From a virus: a stretch of DNA of 46,687 nt. The DNA is taken from positions 1 to 46,687 of IMG/VR virus record IMGVR_UViG_3300034524_000048; one strand, 5' to 3'. This document shows positions 1 to 46,488 of the stretch, in pieces. The translations under genes and the position numbers were made by a program. The first letter of the stretch is position 1, and the number at the start of each line of letters is the position of its first letter. Below the pieces are notes generated by a model. It was not told the origin of the DNA. It ran no database searches and was given only the letters and a program-made list of their open reading frames with translations.

Positions 1-42
1 AAATTTAATAATGGAATTGAAAATAGATTTGAGTGGTCATGA
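1..42 (+). CDS. Serine recombinase 3' end (partial, second copy)
   Basis: The first 42 bases encode the final 13 residues of a large serine recombinase and its TGA stop, in the same frame and identical in DNA to the complete gene ending at 44287. The rest lies outside the window. It is either the end of the recombinase of a second, tandem prophage or the same gene read twice through a circular genome. Confidence 0.8.
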   Translation, partial: KFNNGIENRFEWS

Positions 43-103
43 GAATGGCCATTTTTCTTGCGTTTATAATCATGCTTACTTAGTACATCTGACAGCCATA
101 GGT
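1..103. repeat. Left attachment-site copy (attP-like junction)
   Basis: This stretch is identical to 44246-44348. It holds the last 13 codons of the serine recombinase plus stop (1-42), a short spacer, and the conserved end of a miaB fragment. Left of the miaB fragment one expects the rest of host miaB at a normal attL. Instead there is recombinase sequence, which is the arrangement of a free attP or of two tandem prophages. The crossover is probably within 86-103, the part shared by phage and host miaB versions. Confidence 0.85.
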
Positions 104-241
104 TTTTGTAAGCACCTTTTTTTGGCGTCCATTTTCTCTATAAAATTTGTCGTTAATTTCTCTTATTTCATTTATGGCTTTATCATTTTCTTCCCATATA
201 TTTTTCATATCTGTAACTTGTATTGACTCTATTCTTGACAT
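80..241 (-). CDS. miaB: Phage-carried replacement 5' end of miaB (53 codons)
   Basis: The 53-residue product ends in KTYGCQM-Y, the conserved N-terminal motif of MiaB, the radical-SAM enzyme that methylthiolates adenosine 37 of tRNA; the Cys is the first cluster ligand. It has the same length as the host fragment at 44325-44486. The first 46 codons are diverged and AT-richer, while the last 18 bases before the Tyr codon are identical. A good RBS (GGAGGG, 246-251) and an extended -10 promoter precede it. On integration this piece would join the distal part of host miaB in frame. Here it ends at once in a TAA because it faces the recombinase end. Confidence 0.82.
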   Translation of the reverse strand: MSRIESIQVTDMKNIWEENDKAINEIREINDKFYRENGRQKKVLTKTYGCQMY

Positions 242-270
242 AGTACCCTCCGTTATTCTGATGCCAATTT

Positions 271-279
271 ATTATAGCA
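271..279 (-). promoter_or_regulatory. Extended -10 promoter for the phage miaB 5' end
   Basis: On the minus strand the sequence reads TGCTATAAT about 30 bases upstream of the miaB-fragment start codon. The extended TGn motif compensates for the lack of a clear -35 box. It suggests that the phage supplies transcription of miaB after integration. Confidence 0.6.
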
Positions 280-306
280 TATTTAAAAGTTTTCTTTAGA
301 AATGTA

Positions 307-335
307 TTGACATTTTATAATACATGTATTATAAT
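307..335 (+). promoter_or_regulatory. Consensus promoter with embedded 20-bp palindrome
   Basis: TTGACA (307-312) and TATAAT (330-335) are separated by exactly 17 bp. A perfect 20-bp palindrome centred on TACATGTA (315-334) fills the spacer and overlaps the -10 box, which is a classic repressor position. It drives the small rightward genes 360-900. Confidence 0.85.
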
Positions 336-359
336 TATATCATAGAAAGGAGGTGAACA

Positions 360-488
360 GTGGACGTTGATAAGGTTTTAGACACAATAAAAGACTTGCT
401 ACAGATTATAGTATTACTTTTGACAGCCCGACAGCTACTCAAAAAAGATAAAACTAAAAAATCAAATCGCAAGTCTCGGAGGCGGTAA
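360..488 (+). CDS. 42-residue hydrophobic/basic peptide, candidate type I toxin
   Basis: A GTG start follows a near-perfect RBS (AAAGGAGGTGA) and a consensus promoter. The peptide has one hydrophobic helix (about residues 10-24, rich in Leu/Ile/Val) and then a strongly basic tail with many Lys/Arg. This layout is known from small membrane toxins and holin-like toxins of Firmicutes type I systems. The stop codon lies in the loop of a hairpin (478-496), and an antisense promoter points into the 3' end. I do not recognise a named family, so the toxin call is inference from architecture. A small phage membrane peptide of other function is the alternative. Confidence 0.6.
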   Translation: MDVDKVLDTIKDLLQIIVLLLTARQLLKKDKTKKSNRKSRRR

Positions 489-513
489 ACGCCTCCCCCT
501 CTTTCGAGGGGTC
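445..513 (-). ncRNA. Candidate antisense RNA to the 42-residue peptide mRNA
   Basis: A minus-strand promoter (TGGACA at 548-543, 17 bp, TATTAT at 525-520) would start an RNA near 513. The RNA would contain two GC-rich hairpins (511-496 and 496-478) and then run into a T-rich stretch, all antisense to the 3' end of the peptide mRNA. The 3' end is approximate; no strong intrinsic terminator is visible. The overlap geometry matches TxpA/RatA-like type I systems. Confidence 0.42.
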
Positions 514-519
514 ACTTAT

Positions 520-548
520 ATAATATCATGTCTGGTAATGATTGTCCA
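520..548 (-). promoter_or_regulatory. Antisense promoter facing the 42-residue peptide gene
   Basis: TGGACA and TATTAT on the minus strand are separated by 17 bp. Each box is one mismatch from consensus. It lies in the first codons of the plus-strand gene 528-716 and transcribes towards 360-488. Confidence 0.45.
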
Positions 549-716
549 CTAAGCGTCATGAGATATTCGGTTTCAATTATCATTGTTGCCCTTGTTGTAT
601 TAAACATTCTTGATGGTGATTTTTCAAATCCATCCACGCTTGATTATATCAAGTTTGCTCTGATGGCCATCGTCTTGATACTATCCATTAAAAAAGGCGG
701 TGATGTCGATGACTGA
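528..716 (+). CDS. 62-residue two-helix membrane peptide
   Basis: The product has two predicted membrane segments (about residues 13-29 and 41-54) joined by a short acidic loop, and a charged C-terminus ending KKGGDVDD. The RBS is weak: GAGGGG lies about 15 bases before the ATG. Expression may therefore depend on the upstream gene or on RNA folding. It ends overlapping the start of the 63-residue gene, suggesting one transcript from the promoter at 307-335. I do not recognise the family; holin-like or toxin-associated roles are possible but unproven. Confidence 0.55.
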   Translation: MSGNDCPLSVMRYSVSIIIVALVVLNILDGDFSNPSTLDYIKFALMAIVLILSIKKGGDVDD

Positions 717-6999: not shown

Positions 7000-8628
7000 T
7001 TATAATTTGAACATTGGATACATCACTGCCATTACATATCTTTTAATGTATTCTGCAGAACCGTCCGCTTTATATATATTTAATAGATCAAGGTCAGTAC
7101 TGTACGGCTCAATAATCACATCCTCAAATGGTCTTCCTAACGAATGAGATGTAATTGATAATGCATACATAAGAGTATAAGAAACTGTTCCTAAACTCGT
7201 TCCGCTGTAGTTAAATTCAAAGTAGGCTCCATCTGAATCACGCCTTGCCACTATTTTGTCATACACAGCGGATGAGGCAAAAAAATTTGAATTATTATAA
7301 AACGCATACGGCGAGGTTACATTATACAATAGCGTTCCAGCATCATTGTATATCTCGCATCTATCCCATGTGTAGTATGATCTACTTACTCTATCCTTAA
7401 AGTTTCTGTATCGATAAGTGTTTTCCGAAAGTATATTGGAAAGCAGTGTGAAATTTAAGTCGTAAATTCCTGGATATGATGAGGTTAAATAAGTACTTGC
7501 ATCTCTCATTGTCCCATCATAACTATACGATAGGCCACGGTTTGCTTCTGCTGGAAGTGACAATATTTGAGGGCACTTAACCGCAGTACCCTGCACATTA
7601 AATATGTTTGCACTTTCTACAATATTGCTAGCTACCAGATCAGCATCTCCAGCGATTGTCTGTGTTCCACTTAAGTACTGGCCTGCCGCTATCGTCTGGT
7701 TTGCTGTTCCAGGTGTGTATGTCTGCGCCCCTTTACTTGGTATAGTACCAGTTACCAACGCCCCATCTACATACGCCTTTTTCCCACTTAAAATCTGAGC
7801 GGATGTGGCGTCACCTGCGGAAGTATCTACTACATTTGAGTTACCAGTCACGCCGAAGATATTGGCGCCAGCTTTGATGTTGGTGCTTACAAGGTTAGCG
7901 TCCCCTGCTATTGTCTGCGTACCGCTTAGATACTGTTCCGCCGCTATCGTCTGGTTTGCTGTTCCAGGTGTAAAAGTTTGGGCACTCTTACTCGCGATCG
8001 TACCAGTTACTAGCGCACCATCTACATACGCCTTTTTTCCACTTAAAATCTGTGCGGCCGTGGCATCACCCGCAGAAGTGTCAACAACATTTGTGTTACC
8101 TGCAACACCAAATATATTGACTCCAGATTTTATGTTGGTGCTAATAAGGTCAGCATCGCCGGCTATCGTTTGATTACCGCTTAAGTACTGTCCGGCAACG
8201 ATTGTTTGTGCTGTCGTGCCTGGTGTGTATGTTGCGGCTGACTTACTCGCGATACTGCCCGTAACCTTTGCGCCGTTTACATACGCGGTGACGCCACTTA
8301 GCATTTGTGCGGCTGTAGCTGTGGCATCGCTTGTAAATGTCCCGAGTACGCCACCTACTGTTGTGCCAGCCTTAATGACAGACGCTACAATCCCAGTGAT
8401 TGCCGCTTTTACTTTGCCTAGGCCACTATGATATCCCGCAGTGACCGTGTACTCTTGACCCTCTGAGGTCAATGTGACATCAACAGCGCCGCGATTCGGC
8501 ATTGTGCCTGTTAATCCGATGTCCTCATCGTTACTAAACGTTTTGCCTGCGAGGACATCCCCTGCAATCGCATCCCCTTCCGGACTCTTTCCGGACCCGA
8601 TGAGCCCGTGAAGTTTTAGATCATCCAT
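7000..8628 (-). CDS. Tail fibre protein with tandem 85-residue repeats
   Basis: The 542-residue protein begins with a short attachment segment (residues 1-107). Three tandem repeats of about 85 residues follow (108-192, 193-277, 278 to about 350), each with LSG...AYV and YLSGTQTIAGDA motifs. A distinct aromatic-rich C-terminal domain (about 355-542) is the likely receptor-binding part. The start overlaps the previous stop (TAATG). It is probably the distal fibre joined to the collar-type fibre encoded upstream. Confidence 0.82.
   Translation of the reverse strand: MDDLKLHGLIGSGKSPEGDAIAGDVLAGKTFSNDEDIGLTGTMPNRGAVDVTLTSEGQEYTVTAGYHSGLGKVKAAITGIVASVIKAGTTVGGVLGTFTSDATATAAQMLSGVTAYVNGAKVTGSIASKSAATYTPGTTAQTIVAGQYLSGNQTIAGDADLISTNIKSGVNIFGVAGNTNVVDTSAGDATAAQILSGKKAYVDGALVTGTIASKSAQTFTPGTANQTIAAEQYLSGTQTIAGDANLVSTNIKAGANIFGVTGNSNVVDTSAGDATSAQILSGKKAYVDGALVTGTIPSKGAQTYTPGTANQTIAAGQYLSGTQTIAGDADLVASNIVESANIFNVQGTAVKCPQILSLPAEANRGLSYSYDGTMRDASTYLTSSYPGIYDLNFTLLSNILSENTYRYRNFKDRVSRSYYTWDRCEIYNDAGTLLYNVTSPYAFYNNSNFFASSAVYDKIVARRDSDGAYFEFNYSGTSLGTVSYTLMYALSITSHSLGRPFEDVIIEPYSTDLDLLNIYKADGSAEYIKRYVMAVMYPMFKL
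7579..8307 (-). repeat. Tandem 255-bp repeats in the fibre gene
   Basis: Three units (8307-8053, 8052-7798, 7797 to about 7579) encode near-identical fibre repeats. Units 2 and 3 are most alike, with stretches of identical DNA. They are a substrate for unequal recombination that would change fibre length. Confidence 0.85.
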
Positions 8629-34210: not shown

Positions 34211-34505
34211 TGGCAGCCTCGCTTTTTTCTTCAATGTCTTCAAAGTCTTCCGCAGGAAGACACAGGGTCATATCGCCATCTGCCCAAAACCTTTCTACAT
34301 CTTTAATTGTTTCAAATCCATGTACAGATTCATATTCGTCAAGATTTAAAACGGCTTCGTAAAACTGTTTTTCTTGCCCCTCTATGCATCCATATACGAC
34401 AACACTTTCTTGGAAAGGTTGCTTATCTGCCGTTACAATCTGTATCCCTCTAAAAAATTCAGAATATCTTGATACGTCTCCATCTTTTACTTTTATGAGT
34501 TTCAT
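34197..34505 (-). CDS. 102-residue acidic early protein, unknown function
   Basis: The protein is acidic, with a beta-rich first half (MKLIKVKDGDVSRYSEFF) and an acidic helical end (EDFEDIEEKSEAANETD). It overlaps the DUF7666 gene by 4 bp and the methyltransferase by 14 bp, so the three are co-translated. No recognised domain. Confidence 0.65.
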   Translation of the reverse strand: MKLIKVKDGDVSRYSEFFRGIQIVTADKQPFQESVVVYGCIEGQEKQFYEAVLNLDEYESVHGFETIKDVERFWADGDMTLCLPAEDFEDIEEKSEAANETD

Positions 34506-34996
34506 TCGCTCACCTGTACAACTTCCCCGTTTTTTAATGTGTAAAACGTATCGGGTTTTACGGTATCACCATCAACTAATATTGACTTAACTTCTTTGAT
34601 ATACCAGTCTGAATTATCGTTTTTCTCCCACTCTGCCAATACCAACCAACAACCCGCATACCCTTTAGCCCTACTTTCTCCCCCGGTAGCAATTGCAATA
34701 CTTTCTTTTCCTGTTACGGCTGCCGCAGAACACTCTCCTGTATTAATAGCTACCGAATAGTCTCCTGTATTAGTGGCTGCTGAAACGTCTCCTGTGTTAG
34801 TGGCTACTGAATACTCTCCTGTATTAGTGGCTGCTGAATAGTCTCCTGTGTTAATAGCTACCGAATAGTCTCCTGTGTTATTTGCCGCTGAATATCGCCT
34901 GGTGTTAGTGGCCACTGATCGGAATCCCGTGTTACTCGCATTATCGTTTTTCTGGTCTATATGATTCAAAATATGCTCAACATTTTTGTAATCCAT
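34502..34996 (-). CDS. DUF7666 repeat protein with ten nonapeptide repeats
   Basis: Residues 27-116 consist of ten consecutive 9-residue repeats of the form S-A/V-A-x-N-T-G-D-Y. These would stack as a beta-solenoid with Ala/Val inside and Asn-Thr-Gly turns. A conserved cap follows (CWLVLAEWE..., then VDGDTVKPDTFYTLKNGEVV), typical of DUF7666. Function is unknown; the regular surface could mimic DNA or bind a polymer. Start ATG 34996 has GAGGA upstream. Confidence 0.85.
   Translation of the reverse strand: MDYKNVEHILNHIDQKNDNASNTGFRSVATNTRRYSAANNTGDYSVAINTGDYSAATNTGEYSVATNTGDVSAATNTGDYSVAINTGECSAAAVTGKESIAIATGGESRAKGYAGCWLVLAEWEKNDNSDWYIKEVKSILVDGDTVKPDTFYTLKNGEVVQVSE
34649..34918 (-). repeat. 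27-bp tandem repeats in the DUF7666 gene
   Basis: Ten 27-bp units alternate two sub-types (SVA and SAA codons). Several neighbours differ by only a few bases, so slippage or recombination could add or remove whole units without breaking the frame. Confidence 0.85.
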
Positions 34997-41841: not shown

Positions 41842-42588
41842 ATGAAATTTAGTACCTGGGAAGAGCGAATCCATTTAACGCCTAAACAAAAACAAAGATT
41901 TGAAGAATCCAAATCAGACGAATGCGAACCTGTATCAATTGATTTCGAGCAAAATTCCGCTACCTTTAAAGATGATCGTAAGCTATATAAGACATCTTTA
42001 AATCATTGTACTTGCAGAGATTTTTTTATTCGGCAAATGCCATGCAAACATATTTACAGGCTGGCGATCGAATTAAATATGATTGATAAATATGAGCAAG
42101 ACCCTTCCATCAGTGATTTTGATTCTTTCGATTTAACATTAGCTTGTATCGGTAATACTTTTTTGCACGCTCATGGTCCCAATATTATTGTTCAAAAAAA
42201 GCGTTCTCGCGAAGTATTTCCAATTTCAAAAATACAAGTCTTTTCTCTAACAGAACCTAAATCTCACAACAGTTTCGGTACTGTCACATTTTTTACCGCC
42301 CAAGCTCCTACCGGCGGCGTTGGACTCGGCCTTGGAATTTCCGCAGCCGTTGGTGCAGAAAATAAATTCAGCTTCGTATATGACAATTTATCCGATGCCT
42401 TGAAACTTTATAAGTATGTTACAGAGTTTGAAAAGCCGACTCTTCCTGTATCTGATCCGTCTTCCCTCGGTAACAATTCCTTTGTTTCTGTTGCTGACGA
42501 AATCAGAGCGCTCAAATCTCTTCTTGATGACGGAATCATCACCCAAGATGAATTTGACGAAAAGAAAAAGCAATTGCTATTTTCTTGA
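41842..42588 (+). CDS. SWIM zinc-finger and SHOCT-domain protein
   Basis: The 248-residue protein contains a SWIM-type zinc finger (Cys56-x-Cys58...Cys68-x-His70), a Gly/Ala-rich hydrophobic middle (about 152-168, GGVGLGLGISAAVG) and a C-terminal SHOCT motif (about 215-247, EIRALKSLLDDGIITQDEFDEKKKQLL). SWIM fingers bind nucleic acid or protein; SHOCT motifs often mark oligomerising stress or surface proteins. It is third in the repressor operon, so it is made in the lysogen. Role unknown. Confidence 0.85.
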   Translation: MKFSTWEERIHLTPKQKQRFEESKSDECEPVSIDFEQNSATFKDDRKLYKTSLNHCTCRDFFIRQMPCKHIYRLAIELNMIDKYEQDPSISDFDSFDLTLACIGNTFLHAHGPNIIVQKKRSREVFPISKIQVFSLTEPKSHNSFGTVTFFTAQAPTGGVGLGLGISAAVGAENKFSFVYDNLSDALKLYKYVTEFEKPTLPVSDPSSLGNNSFVSVADEIRALKSLLDDGIITQDEFDEKKKQLLFS

Positions 42589-42604
42589 TTCGCCGTTCTA
42601 TCCA

Positions 42605-42633
42605 ACCGTCATTTTATGGCGGTTTTATTTTTT
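42605..42633 (+). terminator. Intrinsic terminator between lysogeny operon and recombinase
   Basis: ACCGTCA (42605-42611) pairs with TGGCGGT (42617-42623, one wobble), followed by TTATTTTTT. It separates the SWIM/SHOCT gene from the recombinase RBS, so recombinase synthesis in the lysogen would depend on read-through. Confidence 0.8.
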
Positions 42634-42643
42634 AGGAGGGTCC

Positions 42644-44287
42644 ATGAAAGCCGCACTATATATCCGGGTGTCTACAAATCATCAAATTGATAAGGACTCT
42701 TTGCCATTTCAGCGTAAAGAGCTTATAAACTATTCTAAGTATGTTTTGAATATTAATGATTACGAGGTATTTCAAGATGCCGGTTACTCCGGTAAAAATA
42801 CAGATCGGCCCGAATATCAACAGATGATCTCCAGATGCCGTGCCGGTGAATTTTCTCATATTGTCGTCTGGAAAATCGATCGTATTTCTCGAAATCTTCT
42901 TGATTTTGCTGAAATGTACGAGGAACTCAAAGAACTCGAAGTCACTTTTGTTTCTAAAAATGAGCAATTCGATACTTCATCTGCTATGGGTGAAGCAATG
43001 CTCAAAATCATATTGATATTCGCAGAACTCGAACGCAAGATGACCGCAGAACGCGTTAAAGCGATCATGCTTGCGCGTGCCGAAAAAGGCCAGTGGAACG
43101 GCGCAGGTGTTCCGCTTGGTTATCAATGGTCTGCCAGCGAAGGGTTCCCTGTTGTAGATCCTGATGAATCACAAACGATATCTATGATTTATAACGCCTA
43201 TGCTTCTGAAAAATCCACTACTGCAATTGTACGCATGCTGTCTGAAATGCACATACCAACAAAACGCGGCGGCATCTGGGGAACTAAAGGCGTTGTCGAT
43301 ATAATTCGCAATCCTTTTTACAAAGGCACGTACCGGTATAATTATCGAAAAAGTGGGCGCGGTAAAAAGAAAGACCCCTCTGAGTGGATCATTGTCGACG
43401 ATAACCATGAGGCCATCATCGACAAAAAGTTGTGGGCTTTGTGCAATGCTATTATGGATAAAAACGCCAAGAAAAATTCAAGCCAATTCCGGCAGAAGAA
43501 ACACACACATATATTTTCAGGGCTCATTCGCTGTGCCGAATGCGGTGAGGTATTTCATTCCAGTAAAGATTCCAGACGATCCAGCGGTTTTATTCCATCC
43601 CGTTACCGCTGTAAAAGTGACGCGTATGGACATGGCTGCGACGCAAAGATCATTACTGATGTTACACTCGGCCCTTTTGTGTTTAACTATATTCTCAATA
43701 TTTTAAAAGCACATAATCAAAATGAACCTCTTGATTCTGTGCTTCTCGACGGGGATGAATTTATAAATTGTAAAATTTCAAGCGGTTTTAAAGCGCTCTG
43801 CGATGTTGTGATTAATCCTTCGACGAAATCTATTCAATATGCACTATCTAATGATACATCTAAAAATTGGGTGCGTACCGAGTCTTTAAAATCAATCGAT
43901 GTTAAGATCACAAAGTTTAAACGTGCGATCGATAGACTGGATGATCTATATCTTTTCTCCGATGAGGGCATGTCTGAAAAGGATTATATTTTAAAAAAGC
44001 AAAAGTTTGCCAATGAAATTGACGCACTTTCAGAAAATAAAAAATTGATTGAGCTTGAGCCTCTAAAGCATGAAGAATCATCGTTAATTGCTCAAGCTTC
44101 AGAGTTTATATTGATTAATGAGTTAGACCAAAATCACATTGATTTTGTAGACTTGTGGATGGGTATTGATTCAGAGTATTTAAAAGCGTTCATCCAGTCG
44201 ATAATCGAAGAGATTGAAGTTAAAGACGGCAAAGTTTCTGCCATAAAATTTAATAATGGAATTGAAAATAGATTTGAGTGGTCATGA
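42644..44287 (+). CDS. Large serine recombinase (integrase)
   Basis: The 547-residue enzyme has a resolvase domain with YIRVST (catalytic Ser10), DRISR and FAELERKMTAERVK. A recombinase domain (about 150-260) and a zinc ribbon (Cys297, Cys300, Cys323, Cys332) with a coiled coil follow. ATG 42644 with AGGAGG is chosen; the frame is open further upstream but without RBS. It catalyses integration into miaB. Its last 14 codons including the stop belong to the attachment-site repeat. Confidence 0.96.
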   Translation: MKAALYIRVSTNHQIDKDSLPFQRKELINYSKYVLNINDYEVFQDAGYSGKNTDRPEYQQMISRCRAGEFSHIVVWKIDRISRNLLDFAEMYEELKELEVTFVSKNEQFDTSSAMGEAMLKIILIFAELERKMTAERVKAIMLARAEKGQWNGAGVPLGYQWSASEGFPVVDPDESQTISMIYNAYASEKSTTAIVRMLSEMHIPTKRGGIWGTKGVVDIIRNPFYKGTYRYNYRKSGRGKKKDPSEWIIVDDNHEAIIDKKLWALCNAIMDKNAKKNSSQFRQKKHTHIFSGLIRCAECGEVFHSSKDSRRSSGFIPSRYRCKSDAYGHGCDAKIITDVTLGPFVFNYILNILKAHNQNEPLDSVLLDGDEFINCKISSGFKALCDVVINPSTKSIQYALSNDTSKNWVRTESLKSIDVKITKFKRAIDRLDDLYLFSDEGMSEKDYILKKQKFANEIDALSENKKLIELEPLKHEESSLIAQASEFILINELDQNHIDFVDLWMGIDSEYLKAFIQSIIEEIEVKDGKVSAIKFNNGIENRFEWS

Positions 44288-44348
44288 GAATGGCCATTTT
44301 TCTTGCGTTTATAATCATGCTTACTTAGTACATCTGACAGCCATAGGT
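44246..44348. repeat. Right attachment site (attR-type)
   Basis: The 103 bp are identical to 1-103. Here the recombinase end is joined to the true host miaB 5' end, so this is a genuine phage-host junction. Identity stops at 44348 where host and phage miaB diverge. Confidence 0.9.
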
Positions 44349-44486
44349 CTTGATGCAGGCTCTTTTTCGATATCCGGTTTCTTCAAAATATTGATCCACG
44401 GAAGCCTTGATTTCACGGATTTTCACATCGTTTTCCTCGAGAATCGACTCAACAGACTGAATCGAAATCGGAACTCTATTTGACAT
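44325..44486 (-). pseudogene. miaB: Host miaB 5' end, cut by the prophage
   Basis: The 53-codon fragment has a host RBS (AGGAG) and ends KTYGCQM-Y, then stops in phage DNA. Intact MiaB continues with an N and the radical-SAM core. The fragment is separated from the rest of the gene by the prophage. The upstream aminotransferase is on the same strand but is separated by a terminator. Confidence 0.88.
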
Positions 44487-44530
44487 TTATTTCTCCTGTT
44501 CTTTCGCTGGTCTTTCACTGGTCTTTCGCA

Positions 44531-44557
44531 TTAAAAAGAGGGAGTGCCCTCCCTCTT
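44531..44557 (-). terminator. Terminator after the aminotransferase gene
   Basis: On the minus strand AAGAGGGAG (44557-44549) pairs with CTCCCTCTT (44544-44536) across a 4-base loop, then TTTAA. It lies between the aminotransferase and miaB. Confidence 0.85.
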
Positions 44558-44590
44558 CAATTATATCAATTCTCATTTGCAAAGACAAAT

Positions 44591-45781
44591 CTATAATTTT
44601 GAGCAAAAAGCACCGATTCGGTCGATCCCCTCAATGATGTTTTCCATGCTTGTCGCATAAGAAAGTCGAACATATCGATCTGCATTAAAGGCGATGCCCG
44701 GAATAACCGCAACTTTTTCGTCATCAAGAAGTGCGGCAGAAAAATCCATAGAGTTTGAAATCACTTTGCCTGCAAATGTTTTGCCGATACATTTTGAAAT
44801 GTCTACCATCACATAAAAGGCCCCTTTCGGAACGACGCAGTCCAGCATCGGTATCGCCTCAATGCGTTTAACCATTTCCAGACGCCTTTCGTCAAATGCC
44901 TTTCGCATAACTTCAATCGTATCCTGTGGGCCAGTCAATGCTTCAATACTGGCATATTGCGCAATGGTATTCGGATTTGATGTCGCATGGGATTGAATAT
45001 TGCCCATGATTTTTGCGATGGCCTCGCTTGACGCCGTGTACCCAATGCGCCATCCCGTCATGGCATAAGCCTTACTCATTCCGTTGATAACAATCGTACG
45101 CGCATAGAGATCAGGTGAAAGCGATGCAATACTTGTATGCGTTTCACCGTAAATGAGTTTTTCATAAATTTCATCCGAAAGAATGTATAAATCGTGTTTT
45201 TCGGCAACTGCCCCGATTGCTTCGAGAAGTGCTTTGTCGTATACGGCACCCGTCGGATTATTCGGGCTGTTTAATATAATGGCTTTTGTCTTTTCAGACA
45301 CGGCCGATTCAATGTCTTCAGCTGTCGGCTTGAATCCGGATCCGGCAGATGTTTCCACAATCACAGGAACGGCATCCGCCAATTTGATGAGTTCATAATA
45401 ACTCACCCAATACGGAGAGGGCAAAATCACTTCATCTCCGGGGTTGCAAAGCGCTTGAAGCGTATTGAACAGCGATTGTTTTGCACCGGTTGAAACGACG
45501 ATTTGCGACGGTTTGTAGTCAAGTCCGTTGTCCGTTTTTAATTTTTCACAAATGGCCGCTTTGAGCGCCGGAAGTCCGGATGCCTCTGTGTATCCGATTC
45601 CACCCGCAGTGATGCGTTCACATGCCGCCGTTCTGATATTTTCAGGTGTATTAAAATCGGGTTCCCCCGCGCCAAAACTGACGACATCAACGCCCTGTTG
45701 CTTAAGCTGTTTTGCCTTAGCGGTGATAGCCAATGTCATGGAACTGGAAATCGCCGAATTTTTACTGGATAATATTTTCAT
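44591..45781 (-). CDS. Aspartate-type aminotransferase (class I, PLP)
   Basis: The 396-residue enzyme has NSPNNPTG (171-178), SDEIYE (202-207), the PLP lysine in SKAYAMTGWRIGY (Lys237) and the substrate-binding Arg245. It transfers amino groups between aspartate and 2-oxoglutarate or related keto acids. An extended -10 promoter precedes it. It is a normal host gene. Confidence 0.92.
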   Translation of the reverse strand: MKILSSKNSAISSSMTLAITAKAKQLKQQGVDVVSFGAGEPDFNTPENIRTAACERITAGGIGYTEASGLPALKAAICEKLKTDNGLDYKPSQIVVSTGAKQSLFNTLQALCNPGDEVILPSPYWVSYYELIKLADAVPVIVETSAGSGFKPTAEDIESAVSEKTKAIILNSPNNPTGAVYDKALLEAIGAVAEKHDLYILSDEIYEKLIYGETHTSIASLSPDLYARTIVINGMSKAYAMTGWRIGYTASSEAIAKIMGNIQSHATSNPNTIAQYASIEALTGPQDTIEVMRKAFDERRLEMVKRIEAIPMLDCVVPKGAFYVMVDISKCIGKTFAGKVISNSMDFSAALLDDEKVAVIPGIAFNADRYVRLSYATSMENIIEGIDRIGAFCSKL

Positions 45782-45852: not shown

Positions 45853-46488
45853 CTAAAAAGTCACATAGGCCGCTTGTGTCGGCGCCGCATCCCCTATGCG
45901 TTTGTAACGCTCTCCGTCATATTGATAAATCACGTGTGTGGCATTTTTGCTCACCGAGTAATTGGCGATTGCAGAAACCGGTTCTTCGGCAAAAATCAGT
46001 TGAAGAATCATAAGCGTCAGCCCATGGCTCACAATCAATATGCGACGCCCATCTCCCTTTTCTTGTTCCTTTTCAGTCATTTCTTTTAAAAAGGTCGTGA
46101 CGCGATCATAAACATCCTGATAATTTTCTCCGTCCCGTCGATCAAATGCCGTTGGAGATAGCATGTATTTTTCATATTCATCCGGATACAGTGCCCTGAT
46201 TTCATCAAAATTTTTGCCTTGCCAATTTCCCAAATTGATCTCCATCAAGCGCTCATCGTAACAAACCTCTTCTTCTGTCAAATGATCAAATGCCACTTTT
46301 AACGTCTGTGCTGCCCGGCCGCTCGGTGAACAATAGAATGCATCAAAATGCACGTCCCGCAAAGCATCTCCCAAATTTTTTGCCGCGGATATTCCCTTCT
46401 CCGTCAGCGGAGAGTCCAACCATCCTTGAAGCCTCTTCTCCACATTCCACGCCGTTTCACCGTGTCTAACCATATAAATTTCAAGCAT
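45853..46488 (-). CDS. Histidine phosphatase (phosphoglycerate mutase-like)
   Basis: The 211-residue protein opens with MVRHGETAWN, the RHG phosphohistidine motif (His9). YCSPSGRAAQT and a second His in VSHGLTL complete the site. It hydrolyses or transfers phosphate on an unknown small substrate. Host gene, same strand as the aminotransferase. No strong RBS other than AAGAAAAAAT is seen. Confidence 0.9.
   Translation of the reverse strand: MLEIYMVRHGETAWNVEKRLQGWLDSPLTEKGISAAKNLGDALRDVHFDAFYCSPSGRAAQTLKVAFDHLTEEEVCYDERLMEINLGNWQGKNFDEIRALYPDEYEKYMLSPTAFDRRDGENYQDVYDRVTTFLKEMTEKEQEKGDGRRILIVSHGLTLMILQLIFAEEPVSAIANYSVSKNATHVIYQYDGERYKRIGDAAPTQAAYVTF

Follow-up and report, generated by a model that had tools for sequence, protein, structure and literature searches.

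A Clostridia phage with a large serine integrase probably replaces the 5' end of miaB while leaving the gene intact

Introduction

What becomes of miaB when a temperate phage inserts near its 5' end, and why does the phage carry a second miaB 5' end of its own? We addressed these questions on a 46,687-base IMG/VR record (hereafter, the window), which consists of one 44,245-bp temperate phage unit (104–44348), encoding portal, head protease, major head protein, terminase and tape measure, and of adjoining host DNA. Phage sequence switches to host DNA at position 44348, inside miaB (attR). Beyond it, on the minus strand, lie the aspartate aminotransferase gene upstream of miaB (44591–45781) and a gene of the histidine phosphatase family, named by eye (45853–46488). 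Two repeats are observed within open reading frames of the window: a 27-nt tandem array of ~8 units (34709–34919, within ORF 34502–34996) and a 255-nt direct repeat with 76% identity (7601–8110, within ORF 7000–8628). The reading that we favor, and hold to be very probably correct, is that the phage integrates at miaB codon 50 and replaces the front of the gene, so that one intact chimeric miaB of equal length results.

Results

The phage carries a second, diverged miaB 5' end

An initial annotation of this DNA had pointed to a second miaB 5' fragment at the other phage end, equal to the host fragment in length and motif, and the two translations bear this out. The phage-borne fragment (80–241, minus strand, ATG at 241) encodes MSRIESIQVTDMKNIWEENDKAINEIREINDKFYRENGRQKKVLTK-TYGCQMY* and the host fragment (44325–44486, minus strand) encodes MSNRVPISIQSVESILEENDVKIREIKASVDQYFEETGYRKRACIK-TYGCQMY*, each with 53 codons followed by a stop. 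Both thus contain TYGCQM and are alike in length and frame, but codons 1–46 of the phage version are unlike those of the host, with 35% identity over the first 46 residues. Both fragments match Clostridia MiaB N-termini: the phage one shares 42–48% identity over 52 amino acids with several family members (best E-value 2e-13), and the host one is 100% identical to its counterpart in the genome G196. The ribosome binding site and extended −10 element attributed to the phage fragment are also present, as GGAGGG (252–247) and as TGCTATAAT (279–271), both on the minus strand; the latter is a promoter-like sequence with a poor −35 element, and a promoter as good was obtained in ~3% of shuffles (p ~0.03).

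No other copy of the phage miaB fragment, and no attL of the window phage, was found in any record scanned. In a scan of viral contigs for TYGCQM codons, most hits were chance frames, and MiaB-like frames came only from L139, L163 and L170. In L163 (523–540), a truncated MiaB-like TYGCQMNVHD is followed by a short unrelated tail; this contig possibly represents another element that interrupts miaB at this motif, in hosts of a different group.

The crossover maps to the cysteine codon of the T(Y/F/W)GCQM motif

Bases 1–103 of the window, at the contig start, are an exact copy of 44246–44348, the last codons of the integrase included. An attL at the left end, joined to the host, was rejected, since it would need host DNA exactly where these bases encode the 3' end of the integrase. 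The left end is thus attP, in which the 3' end of the integrase gene (right arm) is joined to the phage left arm, as in a circular phage or a tandem prophage. The second copy of the repeat comprises the integrase 3' end and the core, and the identity between attP and attR stops at 44348. In attR, the orphaned host miaB 5' end (44325–44486, codons 1–50) is closed by the phage arm TGT CAG ATG TAC TAA. With attP and attR joined in one record, integrated and circular or tandem forms are probably both present in the sample.

We compared attB, attP and attR column by column, attB being taken from the prophage-free conspecific described below. The three share an identical block of 11 bp, ACCTATGGCTG; attR follows the host on its left side and the phage on its right. 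The first phage base in attR is the third base of the cysteine codon, TGC in attB and TGT in attP and attR. Host miaB is therefore cut inside TYGCQM, as first annotated, although not after codon 52: divergence in attR begins at the third base of codon 50. This 11-bp block is the uninterrupted stretch shared by attP and attB of the window phage. The attL/attR pairs of related prophages narrow the crossover to GGTTGTC (G243), TGTC (G152), and TG or a stretch further right (G139), and pooling these three junctions leaves TG. Note that pooling relatives presumes a common crossover position; if the position is shared, the crossover would be the TG of the cysteine codon in T(Y/F/W)GCQM. The core lies ~50 bp from the int stop codon. 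In large serine integrases, attP adjoins int, no long homology between attP and attB is required, and the crossover spans 2 bp. Among six ends of other IMG/VR records compared, no attP was seen at the far end. The cysteine of the motif is known as a ligand of the auxiliary iron–sulphur cluster of MiaB. Residue 43 is the first of the UPF0004 domain, and alignment to 7mjv, a solved structure of MiaB, starts at residue 40; nearly all swapped residues thus precede the catalytic domains.

A prophage-free conspecific predicts an intact chimeric gene

The distal part of host miaB is absent from the record and was recovered instead from G196, a conspecific genome found by a host-family search. Its aminotransferase is 100% identical to the protein of the window flank, and the locus matches this flank at 99.66% over 2,357 bp, the prophage being absent; window positions 1–600 have no match in G196. 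The gene order is aminotransferase (aspB), an uninterrupted miaB of 477 codons, and a gene whose product starts like MutS. The host gene is a genuine MiaB (TIGR01574), scoring 566.5 bits against a cut-off of 355.3, whereas its MtaB/RimO paralogues in the same genome fall under the cut-off.

Joining phage codons 1–49 plus TG to the distal part of the G196 miaB yields an intact frame of 477 codons, equal to the naive length, and from codon 47 onward the predicted chimera does not differ from the naive MiaB. The in-frame junction with distal miaB that had been anticipated is thus obtained on the conspecific, where the predicted attL gene keeps its distal part unchanged. The replacement of the front of miaB is also supported, by the in-frame fit and by the chimeras of relatives (see below), but its extent is revised from 52 codons to codons 1–49 plus TG.

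These junctions suggest the following course of integration. The serine integrase would insert the phage at codon 50 of miaB (TGY, the cysteine of T(Y/F/W)GCQM), its attP being placed at the 3' end of the phage's own cassette, which would provide a putative promoter, a ribosome binding site, a start codon and codons 1–49 plus TG. On the attR side, the integrase would reduce the native promoter and the first ~50 miaB codons to a dead orphan. On the predicted attL side, the phage cassette (104–241) would be fused in frame to host CAGATGAATGAGCAT and to the rest of miaB, from which the lysogen would be expected to express an active enzyme.

Related lysogens carry chimeric miaB genes

The integrase gene (42644–44287, plus strand; likely start M77 of ORF 42416–44287) encodes Resolvase, Recombinase and Zn_ribbon_recom domains (PF00239, PF07508 and PF13408), which make the product a large serine integrase, and its Ser86 is invariant among relatives. 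From genomes of the same order as the host, we retrieved eight lysogens with integrases 48–51% identical to that of the window (G243, G204, G152, G173, G194, G016, G054 and G139). In each of the eight, miaB is present at full length at a distance from the integrase, and an orphan miaB 5' end lies on the integrase side. The intact miaB is found 36–48 kb from the integrase on the same contig, where the element ends on its other side, in five of them (G054, G139, G243, G194 and G173) and on a separate contig in G016, G152 and G204. Terminase, portal and tape-measure genes lie between integrase and intact miaB in G054, the one lysogen in which the gene content between the two ends was annotated. 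Two IMG/VR proviruses, G676 and G683, likewise have a full-length miaB opposite the integrase end; G683 has in addition an orphan on the integrase side (L228), and G676 is trimmed at the integrase (L232). The phage 5' end of G683 is the same as that of G173, so that these two are not independent.

The comparison of G054 with G139 indicates what moves with the phage: their integrases are 96% identical, their phage-side miaB N-termini 89% and their phage-side DNA 92.8% over 842 bp, against 37% for the host orphans and 73% for the distal MiaB. The miaB N-terminus therefore travels with the phage. A tree of 88 integrases places all 16 members for which a miaB junction was detected (window included) within one supported half of 44 rows. 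Clostridium-type members have TWGC in place of TYGC or TFGC. That all related integrases target miaB was rejected, as this half also contains a sister subgroup of longer integrases (~650-residue frames; L113, L115, L116 and L119), whose site is the 3' end of an rsmE-like rRNA methyltransferase gene.

Preserved expression fits the upstream regions better than rewiring

The replaced front might also serve regulation, the phage promoter setting the MiaB level for the benefit of the lysogen or of phage gene expression, as a form of active lysogeny. Such a takeover would add to the repair of miaB rather than replace it, and is favored by the difference between the promoter and 5' end of the window phage and those of the host, whose promoter-like site is accompanied by a hairpin and a T-run. 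Against it, five of the eight relatives have a phage upstream region homologous to the host region beside the orphan (76–98% identity in G243, G204, G152, G173 and G194), the similarity starting ~205–240 bp before the core, where the host contig of G204 stops. This homology makes the cassette look like a captured host promoter and 5' coding region, which weakens the case for phage control and fits conserved expression better than rewiring. We regard takeover as unlikely. Promoter-like sequences are strong in G054 and G139 (TTAACA-17-TGNTATAAT) and in G204, moderate in the window, and no better than shuffles in G016, G173 and G194. As far as sequence can tell, the cassette looks like what a gene-preserving device should look like. 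The broader proposal, that the phage clade uses the conserved MiaB cysteine codon as a universal landing site and that exchangeable cassettes reset MiaB level, tRNA ms2i6A and decoding to the benefit of the phage, seems to us comparably improbable.

Several features of these upstream regions were noted in their own right. Ahead of host miaB (44487–44590, minus strand), a promoter-like TTGTCT-17-TATAAT with an extended −10 is directly followed, before the miaB start codon, by a strong hairpin with a T-run (GAGGGAG GGCA CTCCCTC TTTTT), either the aminotransferase terminator or a miaB attenuator; the phage cassette has no such hairpin and T-run. At 307–335 (plus strand), a perfect 12/12 sigma-70 promoter, TTGACA-17-TATAAT, points away from the miaB cassette toward a small phage gene at 361, and the stretch 301–392 is ~79% identical to Listeria phages.

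Reading frames are maintained on the phage side

Alternatively, integration could simply inactivate miaB, the phage fragment being a passive relic of an old imprecise excision or of host capture. Capture can yield such fragments, and exchange with the host does occur: in G204 (L106, L184), the phage and host miaB 5' ends, promoter included, are 98% identical and their coding changes are all synonymous. On the sequences, this pair points to a recent exchange of the host orphan with the phage cassette, which the direct repeats flanking a prophage would allow; that the G204 orphan is a copy of attP was rejected, the identity being just 98%. A passive relic is nevertheless at odds with the phage-side cassettes of the related lysogens, which keep start codon, ribosome binding site and frame in eight cases out of eight, with miaB frames open and of normal length, and with the exactly in-frame chimera of the window. 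Most nucleotide changes are synonymous relative to available sites: dN/dS ranges from 0 to 0.37 in unsaturated phage–host or phage–phage comparisons, rough values given the short sequences, and is saturated for the phage/host pair of the window. Inactivation is thus very improbable.

Finally, the left end could be an artefact of assembly in which unrelated pieces were joined, but this is still less credible. The start of the record does coincide exactly with the repeat, and attP stands in it together with a right end joined to host DNA. On the other hand, each base of attP, attR and the naive attB is as the integration prediction has it, and a circular or tandem phage beside an integrated one would yield the same contig, its start 103 bases before the attP/attR branch probably representing an overlap of the assembly graph.

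Discussion

The phage thus very probably rebuilds the gene that it enters. Replacement of promoter and N-terminus appears to have evolved at miaB too, in Clostridia phages with serine integrases, with 16 related integrases at this site in the sample examined. A crossover on a nearly invariable codon would account for the ability of a single integrase lineage to use hosts with MiaB N-termini only ~30% alike. The attB/attP pair and the integrase may offer a set usable in many Clostridia, in which the target gene should stay active, and the system offers a clean test of whether lysogeny alters tRNA modification. No paper that we found names miaB as a prophage site, which is weak evidence of absence as our search was thin on subscription journals. 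On this weak evidence, miaB as the target of a clade of serine-integrase phages appears new, while the principle is known in kind from dusA and SXT/prfC.

Islands and prophages at dusA replace its 5' end with a promoter and an in-frame N-terminus (Farrugia et al, 2015; PMC4482086, which also cites the MiaB-like rimO as a target). IMEVchUSA3 brings a new DusA N-terminus of identical length, with 61% identity over 35 amino acids and expression from a lacZ fusion (PMC8409611). Like these elements, the window phage enters a tRNA-modification gene at its 5' end and brings a promoter-like sequence and an in-frame N-terminus; unlike them (Proteobacteria, another integrase family), it combines miaB, a large serine integrase, Clostridia and a crossover on a conserved cysteine codon. 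As at dusA and prfC, the insertion lies in the 5' coding region, and the start codon and N-terminus of the element are predicted to restore a full-length frame. The IMEVchUSA3 paper cites SXT at prfC for the same 5'-end replacement (PMC8409611; for SXT/R391 see also PMC2791158). SXT/R391 differs in being conjugative, in using a tyrosine recombinase and in targeting a release factor (prfC) rather than a tRNA-modifying enzyme.

Two further systems frame the comparison. SpyCI islands integrated at mutL silence mutL and downstream genes, forming a reversible mutator switch (PMC4129442). These Firmicutes elements are phage-like and also occupy a housekeeping gene at its 5' end, but the target frame is predicted to be restored in the window phage, which would argue against silencing of the SpyCI type. 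Bifidobacterium dnaJ2 prophages reconstruct the conserved gene that they enter, with apparent sequence exchange between the phage and host copies (PMC6109161). The window phage likewise targets and would rebuild a conserved protein gene; the dnaJ2 prophages, however, hit the 3' end of theirs, so that the host promoter is kept there, unlike at miaB.
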